A stretch of DNA of 24,874 nt, taken from positions 1-24,874 of the IMG/VR virus record IMGVR_UViG_3300023180_000373; one strand, 5' to 3'. Below the pieces are notes generated by a model. That model made no database searches and had not been told where the DNA came from. It was given only the letters and a program-made list of their open reading frames with translations. Positions within the stretch are counted from its first letter, which is position 1. Every line of letters starts with the position of its first letter. The DNA is from a virus. The translations under genes and the position numbers were made by a program. Of the stretch, positions 15,460 to 22,556 are shown piece by piece.

Positions 15460-16095
15460 ATGCACCAAAATAGAGTAGAACTCCTTGAAGTATGCGGTTC
15501 TGATTTCTCTCACGCCCGTGCGGCATGGGCTTCCACGAATGCAGAGATAGACAAGAACCCGAATTACAAGTCACCTGATAAAATAGCGAATCTTTTAAAT
15601 TACTTAGCCGACCATAATCACGGAACACCCTTTGAGCACTCGCTACTCAGCTTTCGTGTAACCGGTGACATCGCTTCCCACATTCACTGCTTAAAGCATC
15701 GCACCGGAGTCTCGATCAATTGCGAGTCTGCTCGATATAAGGAACTAAAAGAGGATCTATACTATCTACCTGATGATTGGCCGGATGAAGAATTCGCAGC
15801 TGCCCAACAGACGATTGAGCACTGCCATGCTCTTTATCATCAGCTAATCGAGCGGTTGGAACCAGTAGTCGGAAGAAAACGAGCAAAAGAGTCAGCCCGG
15901 TTGGTGCTGCCCTATGCACATCAGCTGCGGTGGGTGATGTCGATGAACTTTCGGGCTTTTGTTCACTTTTATACTTTACGGGCTGCATCGGACGCGCAGC
16001 TGGAGATTCAACAAATCGCCGAAGGAATGCTAAAGCTGATTCGTCAAACGGGTAAGTTTCAGCACTCTCTACGCGCACATTCATTGATTGAATGA
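15460..16095 (+). CDS. thyX: Flavin-dependent thymidylate synthase ThyX
   Basis: 211 aa. ThyX methylates dUMP to dTMP using methylene-tetrahydrofolate, with FAD and NADPH. The family's RHR-x7-S motif appears as KHRTGVSINCESARYKE (about residues 78-94): the first arginine is lysine, the HR and following S are kept. Other family features are present: the N-terminal VELLEVCGSDFSHARAAWAS, the HGTPFEHSLLSFRV segment, and MSMNFRAFVHFYTLRAASDA with the later AQ-EI helix. Start ATG 15460 agrees with the family N-terminus, but no good ribosome site precedes it. Its stop overlaps terL's ATG (ATGA), placing a nucleotide gene inside the packaging operon. Confidence 0.93.
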   Translation: MHQNRVELLEVCGSDFSHARAAWASTNAEIDKNPNYKSPDKIANLLNYLADHNHGTPFEHSLLSFRVTGDIASHIHCLKHRTGVSINCESARYKELKEDLYYLPDDWPDEEFAAAQQTIEHCHALYHQLIERLEPVVGRKRAKESARLVLPYAHQLRWVMSMNFRAFVHFYTLRAASDAQLEIQQIAEGMLKLIRQTGKFQHSLRAHSLIE

Positions 16096-17855
16096 TTACC
16101 GATAAGTACAGGGAGATTTTACAGAAGCTCAAAGACGATCCCCTCTTTTACTTCGAGAAAATAATACGGATCGAACGCTTTGGAAGCGGTGAGCTAATTC
16201 CCTTTGTACCAAACGATGTACAGAAAATTCTCCATTATCGGTGTGAAGACCAACTCAAGCGGACTGGTCTGGTTCGACGGGTGGTGCTGAAACCACGGAG
16301 ATCCGGGTTGAGCACGTACTGCTTATCCCGTTTCTACCGTGCGAGCACTTTCTCGCAACAAAAGCGAATCGCGATCGTTGCGCATGATGACGATACCAAT
16401 CTGACCCTCTTTAATATGGTCAGAACGATGGAGAGAAATCATCCTGCCCCGCTAAAACCGAAAGTTGGTTACTCAGGTAAGAGAGAGTTGCACTGGCAAC
16501 AACTGAACACACGTTTTCGTCTCGGTACTGCTGGAGGTTCGGAGATTGTCGGTGACCAGATTTCCTTTCTGCACTGCAGTGAGGTGTCCCGTTGGGGTAA
16601 TTCTGCAAGCGATTATGCTTCTGCTCTGCTCAAGAATGTAGCGATTGCAGACGGGACAGAGGTGCTATTTGAAAGCACCGCACGCGGCGTAGGCGGTTTC
16701 TTCTATCAGATGTTCTGGGATGCTTACGAAAACCAGTCTCGCTCCGGTTACGAAGCAGACTTTTTTCCTTGGTTCGTTTTTGAATCATATACGAAGCCTT
16801 TCATTGATGAAGCGGAGAAGGAGGCGTTTCGCGAGTCCATTGGCAAAGATCCACGCTACGGTGGCGAAGAGGAACTACGCTTACTCGATGAAACCGTAAC
16901 CTACGAAATCGGTGAACAGGGAAACTTAGCGTTCGGAGTAACCCTTGAGAATCTACATTGGCGAAGGCAAGCGATTGACATCAACTGCCAAGGCCGACTG
17001 GAAGACTTTCATCAGGACTACCCGACAACTGCGCGAGAAGCATTCTTAGCATCCGGTCGCATGGTTTTTGAGCGCAACCTGCTGGAGCGCATGCGACAAC
17101 GAATTGACTATGCACCGAAGCCAACGCGTTTCGATCTTCCCGTCAACCGCTTTGCCAATGATACTTCGAGTGCCCTGCGATACCTGATTGAACCGCAGGA
17201 GTTTGGTGAGCTAGAGATATTTCGGGAACCGACTGCCAACGGTGAATATCGTATCGGAGTAGACGTTTCCGAAGGAATTGAAGTCAACGATCGTGATACG
17301 GACTGGTCGGTCGCCACGGTTTTGGATGCTCTATCCTACGAACAAGTCGCGCTACTGCGCACGAAAACGGACCCGGACCTGTTAGCGTGGAAGCTAACGA
17401 CCCTTGCTCAGTATTATAATGAAGCCCTGTTGATCGTTGAACGTAACAATCATGGACTGGTTACACTGCGTTCCCTGCTGGATAAACATCACTACGCTAA
17501 GCTCTATCATGAGATTAAGCTCGATGAACGGGGTATGCGACGGACCAAGCGTGTAGGGTTTCTGACAACGATTCGCAGCCGACCGCAGTTGGTTGATGTA
17601 CTGAGAGAGTTGCTGCGAAACGAGGATCTGCTGGTGCGATCACCGAAGATTCTGGATGAGTTGATGACGTTCGTAGTGTTACCCAATGGCAAGGAAGCAG
17701 CAAATTCTGGCAGTCATGATGACTGTGTAATGTCACTTGCACTAGCTGCTTGGGGGTGCTTAAAAAGCCCGTCGATCTATAGGAATACGGCTTTTGACGC
17801 ACCAAAGCCTGAACCACAAAAACGTAACCTTTTTGCTCATGTTACACCACGGTGA
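16092..17855 (+). CDS. terL: Terminase large subunit
   Basis: 587 aa, the motor and nuclease that packages DNA into the procapsid. The ATPase Walker A variant is KPRRSGLST (67-75), followed by a Walker-B-like segment ISFLHCSEVSRW (about 157-168) with its acidic residue. The RNase H-like nuclease has D in GVDVSEG (about 391), D/E in LLIVERNNHG (about 440-449) and DD in SHDDCVMSLALAAWG (about 541). The protein ends with a basic tail. ATPase and nuclease are both complete, and the length is typical. It is coupled to thyX upstream and overlaps a small acidic gene downstream by 4 nt (GTGA). Confidence 0.92.
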   Translation: MITDKYREILQKLKDDPLFYFEKIIRIERFGSGELIPFVPNDVQKILHYRCEDQLKRTGLVRRVVLKPRRSGLSTYCLSRFYRASTFSQQKRIAIVAHDDDTNLTLFNMVRTMERNHPAPLKPKVGYSGKRELHWQQLNTRFRLGTAGGSEIVGDQISFLHCSEVSRWGNSASDYASALLKNVAIADGTEVLFESTARGVGGFFYQMFWDAYENQSRSGYEADFFPWFVFESYTKPFIDEAEKEAFRESIGKDPRYGGEEELRLLDETVTYEIGEQGNLAFGVTLENLHWRRQAIDINCQGRLEDFHQDYPTTAREAFLASGRMVFERNLLERMRQRIDYAPKPTRFDLPVNRFANDTSSALRYLIEPQEFGELEIFREPTANGEYRIGVDVSEGIEVNDRDTDWSVATVLDALSYEQVALLRTKTDPDLLAWKLTTLAQYYNEALLIVERNNHGLVTLRSLLDKHHYAKLYHEIKLDERGMRRTKRVGFLTTIRSRPQLVDVLRELLRNEDLLVRSPKILDELMTFVVLPNGKEAANSGSHDDCVMSLALAAWGCLKSPSIYRNTAFDAPKPEPQKRNLFAHVTPR

Positions 17856-18100
17856 TTCCGCAATTTCTGCTTAAAGAAATCTCACTGACACCCCCAATGA
17901 GAGTTCCAACTATGGCAATTGAAGAGCTTCATTCGATCTTGGATGATGTTCGGGTTTTCGTGGAGAGATCGCGAGAGCAAGAATATGAGTCTTTTGCAGC
18001 CGTCGAAATGCACAGCAATCTGTTGGATGACATTGAAGAACTGATTGACGAGTACGAAGACGAATACGTTGAAGACGATGACGAGGATTTAGATGATTGA
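17852..18100 (+). CDS. Small acidic protein between terL and portal (82 aa)
   Basis: Starts at GTG 17852 in overlap with the terL stop and ends overlapping the portal ATG by 8 nt. The second half is strikingly acidic (a run of D, E and Y residues ending VEDDDEDLDD). No family is recognised. ATG codons at 17897 or 17912 are alternative starts; the latter begins MAIEELHSILDDV and would skip a less conserved-looking leader. The tight overlaps on both sides support a real gene; a role as packaging or portal accessory is inferred. Confidence 0.65.
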   Translation: MIPQFLLKEISLTPPMRVPTMAIEELHSILDDVRVFVERSREQEYESFAAVEMHSNLLDDIEELIDEYEDEYVEDDDEDLDD

Positions 18101-20381
18101 GCAAGCCCAACCAAGTTATCCCGGTATTGGGCAAGACTCTCTTGCACAATTAGTTCGTGAGAAGTTTGACCGTGCACGGGAATACCGGCAAGCGATTGAA
18201 TCCGATCGTTGGTTACCCGGAGAAGACGCCTATAACGGTATTTTTCCGGATGCTCCGACCTATACGCGAACCAGTGATCGACCACCTTTCATGGCGATCA
18301 CACGTCGTGAAGTCGCCAGTGCACATATTAAGATCAATGCGTTGATGTTTCAGAACGGAGAAATCCCGTTTGTCATTCAACCGACGCGGTATCCCCGTTT
18401 CGTTCCGTCAGATATTCATCAGTTTGCTGATGGCATGGCTGAAATGTCAGACCGTGAACGGCGTCTTTATCTGGATGAACTGCGTAAGGAACTGCCGATT
18501 GACACGATTCTACGAGATCGTGCGAAAAACATTGAAAATCGCATTCGAGATGTACTGGATCGCACGGATTTCACCAATGAAATCTCGAAATGTATACATG
18601 AATTGATACTGCACGGTACCGGAGTCATGAAAAGTCCGGTGCTCATTCATCGTAATTATCCGGTTTATCGTGGTCGCTATGCCAATCGACTACAGAGGAT
18701 CGAGTCAGCCATTGAGCAGGAACTACTTCCGGCCAGTAAATTTGTCAGTATTTTCAATCTTTATCCTTCTCCGGAAGCCGAAAGCCTAGAAGACGTTAGC
18801 TATATTATCGAGCGCAAGCAGCTGTCTTCCGTGCAAGTTCGTCAGATGTTGACGGAACAACGTGGTTTTGATCTGGAAGCCGTTTCTGATGTGCTGGAAC
18901 GTCGGGTCTATTCCAAGGGCAATGAAATAGCGCAGCCGCTAAATCCGCATCAGGAAAGCTACACCGAAGAAGAGAAAGAGTACGAGTTACTTGAATTTTG
19001 GGGGGTATTAGACCAAGACGATCTGGAAGGCTACATCGACACATCCGAGTTGAATAACCTGAGTGTCTTGCCCGTCTGCATCTATGTTCTGGGTGACAGA
19101 ACAGTCAAGGCCACGCTCAGCCCGTATGACGGTATGTTGCCGTATCACTTTGGTTACTGGCAACGGGTACCGCACAGTATCTGGGGTGACGGAGTGTTCT
19201 GGAGCATTCGGGATGTACAGTCCCTGCTAAATTTTAGCATGGCGATGTATGTCGAAGGCAAACAGATTAGCTCTTTACCGATGGCCGGTATGGATGCAAG
19301 CCAGTTAGCGGCGAATGAAGATCCAACGGATCTTTATCCGGGCAAGATCTTTCAGTTTGCTCCGGGTTCGGATGTCGGCAGTGCCTTTAAGCCAATCGTG
19401 ATTCCGGATGTGACTCATGGCCTGATGGATATGATGCAGTTTCTGCAGAGAGAAGCGAATCTTTCCAGTGGACAATCACCAATCGGCATGGGCCAGACCG
19501 CACCTTATCAAACGCGTACCGCGACCGGTATGAGTATTCTGAACACGAATGCGCAGAAACAAACGGCGTCGGTTGTTCAATCGATCAGTAACATATTACG
19601 TGGTGCGATCAACGGAATCTATCGGTGGATCTTAGTGGATACGGATGATCCGAATCTTCATTGTGATGCCGAAGCACTCTGTACAGGTTACGACCGTTTT
19701 GTCGCCGAAGAAATTCACAATCAACAGATGCTTCAGTTTCTGCAGACCGTCATGAACATTCCGGGCTTGACGGAGCAACTGCGCATGGATCGTTTCGCTA
19801 AGCCCATGCTGCGAGCCTTCAACATGAATCCAGATGAGATGCTAAAGACTCCGGAAGAAATGCAGCAATCTCAACTGCAACGTGAAGAAGCAGCCCAGAA
19901 GCAGATGCAGATGGAAGCGCAGAGTAAGGCGCTATTAGCACAGATTGATCAGCAGAAATCAAAGCTCGATGCTGCTCTGGAAGAGAGAAAGTCAATTGGC
20001 GAGCAACGCAGAGATCTTGAGATTCGCAGGATTATGAACCTGATGGAGAACGGACAAGATCCGGGTCCGATTACCGATTTTACAGATCTTAGCGTGATTA
20101 TCCGTGAAGAACTGCAGAAGCAAAAGATGCTGGAAATGCAACGCCGCGAGCAACTTCGTGCGCAGGAAATAGAACGAGATCTTCAATTAGCACAGCTGGA
20201 AGACGCCGAGTATGCAGAACTACAACGCTCACAAGCCCGGTCAGGTGCACCCGCTAACACCGGAAGAGGTGCGAATCCTTCGGCAGAGTCCGATGTGGTT
20301 GCATCTGGAAGAGTACCTGAACTACCGAATTCAACAGGAGTCTCATCTGGCCCTGCAGCCGGTCAACCCCGACCAATGTAA
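18093..20381 (+). CDS. Portal protein (head-tail connector)
   Basis: 762 aa, long for a portal and typical of podovirus-type portals with an extended C-terminus. The N-terminus (KFDRAREYRQAIESDRWLPG, then EDAYNGIF) and the following FMAITRREVASAHIKINALM, then FQNGEIPF fit the usual opening; the core runs to about residue 560. Residues of about 590-700 are a Q/E/K-rich coiled coil (QREEAAQKQMQMEAQSKALL), and the last 60 residues are low-complexity (SGAPANTGRGANPSAES). That tail is overprinted by the next gene in another frame. Portal forms the dodecameric ring through which DNA is packaged. There are no unusual internal stops. Confidence 0.88.
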   Translation: MIEQAQPSYPGIGQDSLAQLVREKFDRAREYRQAIESDRWLPGEDAYNGIFPDAPTYTRTSDRPPFMAITRREVASAHIKINALMFQNGEIPFVIQPTRYPRFVPSDIHQFADGMAEMSDRERRLYLDELRKELPIDTILRDRAKNIENRIRDVLDRTDFTNEISKCIHELILHGTGVMKSPVLIHRNYPVYRGRYANRLQRIESAIEQELLPASKFVSIFNLYPSPEAESLEDVSYIIERKQLSSVQVRQMLTEQRGFDLEAVSDVLERRVYSKGNEIAQPLNPHQESYTEEEKEYELLEFWGVLDQDDLEGYIDTSELNNLSVLPVCIYVLGDRTVKATLSPYDGMLPYHFGYWQRVPHSIWGDGVFWSIRDVQSLLNFSMAMYVEGKQISSLPMAGMDASQLAANEDPTDLYPGKIFQFAPGSDVGSAFKPIVIPDVTHGLMDMMQFLQREANLSSGQSPIGMGQTAPYQTRTATGMSILNTNAQKQTASVVQSISNILRGAINGIYRWILVDTDDPNLHCDAEALCTGYDRFVAEEIHNQQMLQFLQTVMNIPGLTEQLRMDRFAKPMLRAFNMNPDEMLKTPEEMQQSQLQREEAAQKQMQMEAQSKALLAQIDQQKSKLDAALEERKSIGEQRRDLEIRRIMNLMENGQDPGPITDFTDLSVIIREELQKQKMLEMQRREQLRAQEIERDLQLAQLEDAEYAELQRSQARSGAPANTGRGANPSAESDVVASGRVPELPNSTGVSSGPAAGQPRPM

Positions 20382-20469
20382 GGACCATAATTTACGTGTC
20401 GGCAAGATTCAGGCTTTTCGTGAGATTCTGAATTATCCCGACGCATCCTCATCATCTAAAAGAGTATGA
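20212..20469 (+). CDS. Small phage protein overprinting the portal C-terminus (85 aa)
   Basis: Starts inside the portal gene in another frame and shares 170 nt with it, then runs to a stop that overlaps the scaffold ATG (ATGA). The sequence LTPEEVRILRQSPMWLHLEE, then YLNYRIQQE, then LRVGKIQAFREILN fits a recognised type of small helical protein found between phage portal and scaffold genes. A GGAAG lies 13 nt upstream. ATG 20291 is a second possible start but would lose the LTPEEVRILRQSP part. Function unknown. Confidence 0.7.
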   Translation: MQNYNAHKPGQVHPLTPEEVRILRQSPMWLHLEEYLNYRIQQESHLALQPVNPDQCKDHNLRVGKIQAFREILNYPDASSSSKRV

Positions 20470-21455: not shown

Positions 21456-22556
21456 ATGGCTTATACAGTTAGTAACTACGTCAACGTAACAGGTCAAAAC
21501 CTGTACGGAGACTTGAGCGTGGAAGACGCGCTTACCATTCAGTCGAAGATGTTGCCTGTGGCAAAAAAGCACCTGACTTTCGCACGTTTCGCGCAGAAAG
21601 ACACCAAGGGGCAGAACCAAGGGAACGTCATTCGCCATCGCCGCTACAAGAAATTTCCCCTTTCAGATCAACCACTTGGAGAAGGTGTGACTCCTGATTT
21701 CGACGTGCTCGAATCAGAAGTGATCTCACATACTGTTCGACAATATGGGCGGTACGTGCCGGTGACCGATCTGATGGAAATTCTTGGGCAAGACCCCTAT
21801 ATCAGCATCATTACAGAACGCCAAGCGCAACAAGCTGCAGAGACAATGGACCTGTTGGCTTACAAGCACTTTAGAGCACCTGCTAATGTAATTTACACCA
21901 ACGGGGCATCCCGTGCAGCTGTGAACACCAAGCTCACCGTTAGTGGTAACAACTGTCCACAGTTAGACTCTGCTATTCGTTTTCTTGAGGGCAATGATGC
22001 CGTTAAGATGACCGAAATGCTAGCAGCTACTCCGGACATTGCTACTACACCAATTCGGGCTGGATTCATTGCCATTTGTCACCCGATTTTACGGCAGGAT
22101 CTGGAAGCGATTCCTGATTTTGTACCGGTTGAGAAGTATTCTGATTCCGGTGCTGCAATGGAAATGGAACTCGGAAGCTACAAGGGTGTTCGATTTATCG
22201 GTACTACACAGGCAACCGCGTTCGAAAATTCTTCTGGCAACACTTCAACCGGTGCTGGAGCAACAGGTGGTACTAATGTTGTGGAGAATGCTACTTACGC
22301 CGATGTTTATCCGATCGTAATCTTTGCGAAAGATAGCGTTGGAACTGCCACCATCGGTGGTATGGATAGCATCATTCCCAAGGTAGTTCGACCAACTCCT
22401 AGCGGCACAGACCCCTTGGGTCAACGCGGTACCGTTGGTTATACATTTATGTTTGGAAGCGTGATTCTTAACGAGGATTGGATGGTTAGCATCGAGACAG
22501 CTGTCTCCGCTCTAACTGCTCCAACTGCCGGTACTTACTACGCGTCCAATAGTTGA
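21456..22556 (+). CDS. Major capsid protein, N4-gp56 type (HK97 fold)
   Basis: 366 aa. The N-terminal region MLPVAKKHLTFARFAQKDTK, then the RRYKKFPLSDQPLGEGVTPD pattern and the segment VRQYGRYVPVTDLMEILGQD, then EMDLLAYKHFRAPANVIYTN-like features match the N4-gp56 family of major capsid proteins. The HK97 fold is expected from the family. A T/G/A-rich insertion (about 255-280: SSGNTSTGAGATGGTNVV) probably is a surface loop. AAGAGG lies 6-7 nt before ATG 21456. A hairpin follows the stop. It should be the most abundant structural protein. Confidence 0.9.
   Translation: MAYTVSNYVNVTGQNLYGDLSVEDALTIQSKMLPVAKKHLTFARFAQKDTKGQNQGNVIRHRRYKKFPLSDQPLGEGVTPDFDVLESEVISHTVRQYGRYVPVTDLMEILGQDPYISIITERQAQQAAETMDLLAYKHFRAPANVIYTNGASRAAVNTKLTVSGNNCPQLDSAIRFLEGNDAVKMTEMLAATPDIATTPIRAGFIAICHPILRQDLEAIPDFVPVEKYSDSGAAMEMELGSYKGVRFIGTTQATAFENSSGNTSTGAGATGGTNVVENATYADVYPIVIFAKDSVGTATIGGMDSIIPKVVRPTPSGTDPLGQRGTVGYTFMFGSVILNEDWMVSIETAVSALTAPTAGTYYASNS

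Follow-up and report, generated by a model that had tools for sequence, protein, structure and literature searches.

Viruses are well known for overlapping genes and for gene ends that shift, and in overprinting two out-of-frame proteins are read from one stretch of DNA. In overprinted viral genes the novelty is a new small gene, whereas in the window, the whole 24,874-nucleotide stretch of virus DNA analysed here, the novel part would be the C-terminal tail of the portal, an old and large protein, running over a small old gene. The closest described counterparts of this small gene are HMO-2011 gp50, CRP-2 gp59 and RHph_N3_19 EVB99_108, which lie at the same place after the portal gene, are of similar size and carry the same W...G...L pattern; unlike in the window, the small gene of most HMO-2011-type and related phages overlaps the portal gene little or not at all. 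The annotated GTG start of HMO-2011 gp50 (L015:5515-5691) is probably too late: starting at the in-frame ATG that follows AAGGA, 13 codons further upstream, would lengthen the protein and extend its portal overlap from 35 to 74 nt.

According to PMC11784390, T7 gp6.7 is a small core protein of 88 residues, present in 12 copies between the portal barrel and the core. Like the window protein it is a small podovirus protein, and we use it as an analogy only. Its gene lies before the T7 portal gene, not after it. N4 gp58 (115 aa, phrog_2346) is encoded between the gene for the 94-kDa (portal) protein and gp57, adjacent to the coat gene; tried as a homologue, it was rejected (hhalign probability 0.1%, from a single N4 sequence). 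No publication on the overlap or on the small gene was found in a search that covered few subscription journals, and the accessible text of PMC10386132 holds nothing on either. The overlap is a new, well-documented case backed by an unnamed gene family.

The portal locus and the small protein

The features of the locus are listed in Table 1. As the first-pass annotation had described, the 85-aa gene begins within the portal gene in a different frame, and both ORFs are present exactly as claimed. Small-gene codon position 1 sits on portal codon position 2. Our best explanation overall, which we consider probable, is that an old hairpin gene and the end of the portal gene form a true dual-coding region, the portal tail having run on through the small gene. 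The small gene, found in nearly all members of the portal family examined, would encode a helical hairpin and have its own translation start within the portal gene. In the window clade the portal frame continues through it, one base off, as a predicted disordered tail rich in S, G, A, P and N. What the sequences show is two intact frames, homologues, a tail predicted to be disordered and constraint mostly on the small frame; that both proteins are translated is inferred.

Table 1. Features of the portal region in the window
Feature	Positions	Strand	Remarks
Whole window			24,874-base virus record; marine phage
Large terminase gene	16092-17855	+	
Acidic 82-aa ORF	17852-18100	+	between terminase and portal genes
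Portal gene, 762 aa	18093-20381	+	phrog_332 3e-45; SU10_portal 1.7e-16
GGAAG, Shine-Dalgarno-like site	20198-20202	+	within portal gene; 9 nt upstream of the small gene's ATG
85-aa helical-hairpin protein gene	20212-20469	+	
Dual-coding overlap, 170 nt	20212-20381	+	codes for small-protein residues 1-56 and for portal residues 707-762 with the stop codon
ATGA	20466-20469	+	small-gene stop and scaffold start shared
Scaffold-like gene, 326 aa	20466-21446	+	between small gene and capsid gene
Major capsid protein gene	21456-22556	+	phrog_1357 1.7e-50

The portal assignment is firm, resting on PF23899 (SU10 portal; 60 bits against a cut-off of 30), on phrog_332 and on Foldseek matches of the portal model to the portals of SU10 (the best, E 5e-19), N4 and T7. 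The scaffold-like label was given from position and composition, with no convincing family match, and the ATGA that this gene shares with the small gene suggests coupled (stop-restart) translation of the scaffold in the window. The acidic ORF overlaps the end of the terminase gene by 4 nt and the start of the portal gene by 8 nt. An ORF of similar size occupies the same terminase-portal position in L021 and L023 (L-numbers such as L006 or L011 denote the viral-contig or named-phage sources compared with the window, L015 being HMO-2011), and in L022 an extra 219-aa ORF (L022:951-1610) lies between the two genes, its end resembling an HNH-type homing endonuclease by eye only.

The small protein, modelled from an alignment of 59 sequences (mean pLDDT 86, with 56 of the 85 residues reaching 90), is predicted to form helices at residues 17-23, 27-47 and 53-81. 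The portal, modelled with moderate confidence (mean pLDDT 69), is predicted to be disordered over residues 715-762, with pLDDT 28-33 in the blocks from residue 721 on, and this predicted segment matches the overlap-encoded residues 707-762. Searches of Pfam, PHROGs, NCBIfam, PADLOC and PDB profiles yielded no function for the small protein, the best database match of its family being that of HMO-2011 gp50 to phrog_1461 (E 9e-4), whose function is uncharacterised there, and Foldseek searches with the small protein returned best E-values of 0.14 in the viral and 1.1 in the PDB library. The small protein may help to assemble the portal or procapsid, or may sit on the portal barrel as a minor virion protein, like T7 gp6.7; these roles are favoured because the gene lies between portal and scaffold, is near-universal and is small. 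We give even chances to some portal or procapsid role; the hairpin protein may contribute to assembly of the head, most likely as a portal-binding protein. According to PMC5155283, head formation by the Stx2 phage Sp5 requires an ORF whose number falls between those for portal and capsid, a parallel that is only a hint.

Distribution of the small gene

Sources were gathered by scanning viral contigs for matches to the small protein, to portal alignments and to a small-protein alignment, and six named phages were added. They comprise 166 portal-carrying sources including the window, some contigs having been fetched twice; 142 were usable, the other 24 being dropped for having no portal stop or less than 260 nt downstream of it. 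A homologue of the small ORF was found at the portal end in 134 of the 142, and about 1-1.5 kb further on in five of the other eight (L047, L060, L065, L086 and L095), so that the gene need not always lie next to the portal. Thus, 139 of the 142 sources carry a homologue at, or no more than about 1.5 kb from, the portal 3' end, and none was found in the available DNA of L028, L029 and L045. The iterative small-protein profile used in these searches was applied only near portal ends and contained L014-L019, not the later named records (L168 on).

In tblastn searches of 50,697 phage records, 12 of 12 records matched by L050 and 8 of 8 matched by L165 had the match at the portal 3' end (weakest E about 1, and one of the 12 a duplicate HMO-2011 record). 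The same search with the window protein gave no named phage, only three chance-level records (E 4-9), and with the L068 member no records. A search of species genomes for the portal with two peptide patterns found no relative. Among 23 named phage records inspected, 20 carry a homologue, with E-values no higher than 0.001 when only the portal end was searched; CRP-3 has one small gene intervening between the homologue and the portal gene. The homologue is unannotated in six of these 20 (HTVC115P, HTVC033P, HTVC103P, CRP-1, CRP-345 and Aeromonas 1233), and in the first five of them it is overlapped by the portal gene over roughly 65-200 nt, illustrating that annotation can lose the small gene where the portal overlaps it.

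The window-clade profile matches the non-overlapping small gene of the sister clade with hhalign E-values of 4e-16 and 4.5e-17. Its match to the HMO-2011-like small proteins is weaker (E 1e-4, probability 58%), as is that of the sister-clade profile (E 0.007), and this link would rest also on position and on bridging members: L161-L165 show a 37% match to the window protein (residues 15-74; E 3e-6, calculated against the candidates only), and L165 matches HTVC033P (3e-8) and HTVC115P (4e-5) and, weakly, CRP-1 and 1233 (0.05). A lack of homologues was one of the findings that the first-pass annotation named as refuting its reading; homologues do exist, and they form a family that extends through the portal's relatives, including lineages without the overlap. 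By these sequence comparisons the small gene is real, and a widespread marine phage group gains a conserved gene of the head region.

Selection on the two reading frames

Seven independent pairs were compared across the overlap. Changes in the small protein versus the portal tail numbered 5/45 vs 23/46 for the window and L006, 4/40 vs 13/41 for L111/L114, 6/48 vs 16/49 for L109/L115, 3/48 vs 5/49 for L113/L021, 3/49 vs 10/50 for L022/L125 and 15/46 vs 17/47 for L011/L020, with the opposite direction in L102/L098 (28/46 vs 20/47). Portal third positions differed at 36 of 322 sites within the overlap compared to 2145 of 4840 upstream, a suppression found in every pair (P 0.004 or lower, with sites taken as independent), so that synonymous change in the portal frame is reduced; the absence of any such reduction was the other finding that the first-pass annotation named as refuting its reading. 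The codon periodicity also switches at the overlap. In the four of the seven pairs for which 46-codon upstream portal pieces were compared, third-position changes exceeded first-position changes in 59/59 pieces, whereas first-position changes at least equalled third-position changes in all four overlaps; between the window and L006 the overlap differs at portal positions 1/2/3 by 19/5/2. The other three pairs gave 10/10/9, 12/15/17 and 3/2/1, and overall position 1 equalled or exceeded position 3 in six of seven pairs.

In simulations with matched numbers of changes, the small protein was more conserved than neutral in five of the seven pairs (P<0.05), the exceptions being L102/L098 and L113/L021, the latter with just six changes. 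The dNN/dNS ratio of the small frame was 0.18 (0.00-0.43) for the window and L006, 0.31 for L111/L114, 0 for L022/L125 and 0.53 (0.33-0.79) for group C; in group B it was 0.75 (0.46-1.17), with a portal ratio of 0.72, both intervals reaching past 1. Purifying selection on the small frame is thus detectable for the window and L006 and for group C, and not shown for group B. The pooled identity bins excluded the L022-type rows, which have a one-codon insertion. Positive selection on the portal, considered from dNN/dSN values above 1, was rejected, because the ratio is inflated by a comparison class made up largely of sites at the second codon position of the small gene.

The small gene thus dominates the constraint on the overlap in most lineages, and in one subclade (L011/L020/L098/L102) the constraint is shared by both frames or partly shifted to the portal. 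The first-pass interpretation is partly supported. The small gene is the older of the two and the one under constraint, as proposed: homologues in lineages without overlap place the gene before the overlap, and in most pairs the overlap evolves under the small frame. Corrections concern the length and the low complexity of the portal tail, and this subclade, in which both frames carry constraint.

A different account takes the portal frame past about residue 707 as tolerated read-through without a role, only the small gene mattering. We regard it as unlikely. In five of the seven pairs the tail does change no less than would be expected from small-frame constraint by itself, and it is predicted to be disordered; on the other hand, the portal stop lies beyond the small protein's tryptophan in all 16 clade representatives, tail length is similar across clades, and the tail changes less than expected in two subclade-B pairs, L011/L020 (P 0.037) and L102/L098 (P 0.013, with a fitted small-frame constraint of nil).

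The overlapped portal tail is indeed of low complexity, with 67% S/G/A/P/N compared to a mean of 29% in the first 600 residues (16 clade portals). Reading the window small protein one base back with the phage's codon usage gives an expected fraction of 0.56, against 0.67 observed, so that much of the low complexity is the small protein's own codons in another register. This codon shadow is not the whole explanation, since the L021 and L022 types exceed expectation (0.67 vs 0.50 and 0.72 vs 0.51, respectively). In non-overlapping relatives about the same stretch, read in the portal register, has just 31-34% S/G/A/P/N, and it contains 19 stops in six sister sequences and 202 in 41 others; neither the composition nor the open portal frame therefore comes free. 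For the same reason we rejected low complexity as a general shadow of the whole small-gene family, although it holds for the window clade's own small proteins.

Occurrence, origin and translation of the overlap

The depth of overlap was gauged independently of start codons, as the distance from the small protein's conserved tryptophan to the portal stop. In the window clade, where the tryptophan falls inside the portal gene, the values run from -70 to -97 nt; they are +20 to +50 nt in the sister clade and +8 to +54 nt at most HMO-2011-like loci, one subclade of which has -10 to -16. Deep overlap recurs in L068, L070 and L094 (-52 to -82 nt), in L017/L165, and in HTVC115P and L161-L165 (-142 and -133 nt), where the small gene is almost nested. 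From its preferred ATG, the small gene of L165 (L165:4001-4201) has 176 of its 201 nt inside the portal gene.

A conserved portal motif, S[VI]xx.E, located after the last long helix pair begins and found in 16/16 window-clade and 8/8 sister-clade members, served as an anchor. From it the portal stop lies 242-299 nt away (median 278) in the window clade and 125-275 nt (median 256) in the sister clade, and the small tryptophan 154-205 nt (median 193) and 145-322 nt (median 298), respectively. The portal tail, which the first-pass annotation took to have been extended, is thus not longer than that of the sister clade, and with the small gene about 105 nt nearer the portal core, replacement of the tail fits better than extension. 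The tail read from the overlap is a novelty, because non-overlapped relatives have portal-register stops there. An ancestor would have lost roughly 100 nt of portal-only tail, after which the portal frame would have run into the small gene and regained its former tail length, the tail being kept, we infer, for length or flexibility and not for sequence. L132, a sister-clade member with short spacing, a short tail and no overlap, could resemble an intermediate.

Whether the overlap instead is ancestral to a larger group and was lost by the sister clade was considered on a quick portal tree, whose several long branches leave the deeper order unsure. Deep overlap is present in 16/16 window-clade representatives. 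Given the overlap in L068/L070/L094, a gain in a common ancestor with a later loss by the sister clade needs no extra changes, so that the tree does not fix the direction; the deep overlap of L017/L165 also speaks for an ancestral state. Against it, deep overlap is absent from the outgroup rows L014/L018 and from most HMO-2011-like rows, and the branches with good support require two or more changes in its state, within a part of the tree made unsure by long branches. We hold an ancestral overlap to be the less probable course.

Beyond the run-on of the portal tail through an old gene, we tentatively suggest that any reading of a neighbouring gene can serve as the tail, that constraint shifts between the frames by lineage, and that the small proteins are an unrecognised, near-universal family of portal partners. 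If true, a portal-partner family of phages with SU10-type portals would escape gene finders in certain abundant pelagiphages owing to the position of its gene within the portal gene. The repeated overlaps of varying depth also form a natural series in which one can ask how a disordered tail is able to share DNA with an old folded protein, and which of them selection sees.

An ATG or GTG start lies 24-28 codons upstream of the tryptophan in 16/16 representatives. Anti-Shine-Dalgarno pairing at this start is -3.3 kcal/mol in the window, against a background mean of -1.5 (18% of background sites are as strong), and averages -4.3 vs -2.0 kcal/mol for the clade, ranking in the top 20% for 11 of 16 members, with start codons chosen by hand and several members having alternative in-frame starts. 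It is at background level in L106, L125 and L022, and no Shine-Dalgarno sequence was found at the start in L102 and L098. Programmed +1 frameshifting, which would give a minority of portal subunits a hairpin C-terminus, would suit a small frame that is +1 to the portal throughout the window clade and that, in the window, has 7 open codons before its ATG; it is nonetheless very improbable in view of the conserved start position, of the Shine-Dalgarno-like sites in most members and of relatives that carry a separate gene, in frame 0, +1 or +2 relative to the portal.

An open +1 frame alone proves little about the small gene, as it arises in 15-85% of synonymous reshuffles that keep the portal protein and codon usage fixed (62% for the window). 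What exceeds chance, in the comparisons made here, are the homologues in many lineages, the suppressed synonymous change in the portal frame and the switch of codon periodicity at the overlap. That the small ORF is an untranslated accident of portal codon usage is scarcely credible, however common such open frames are by chance, given the homologous stand-alone genes in relatives, substitutions that follow the small frame and a confident predicted fold.

A search with the group I intron model RF00028 found none in the window. The same model matched L022:5532-5743 and L141:2750-2961 (E 8e-19 and 1e-18, respectively), and in L022 the intron interrupts the major capsid gene, whose reading frame breaks there and resumes after it.
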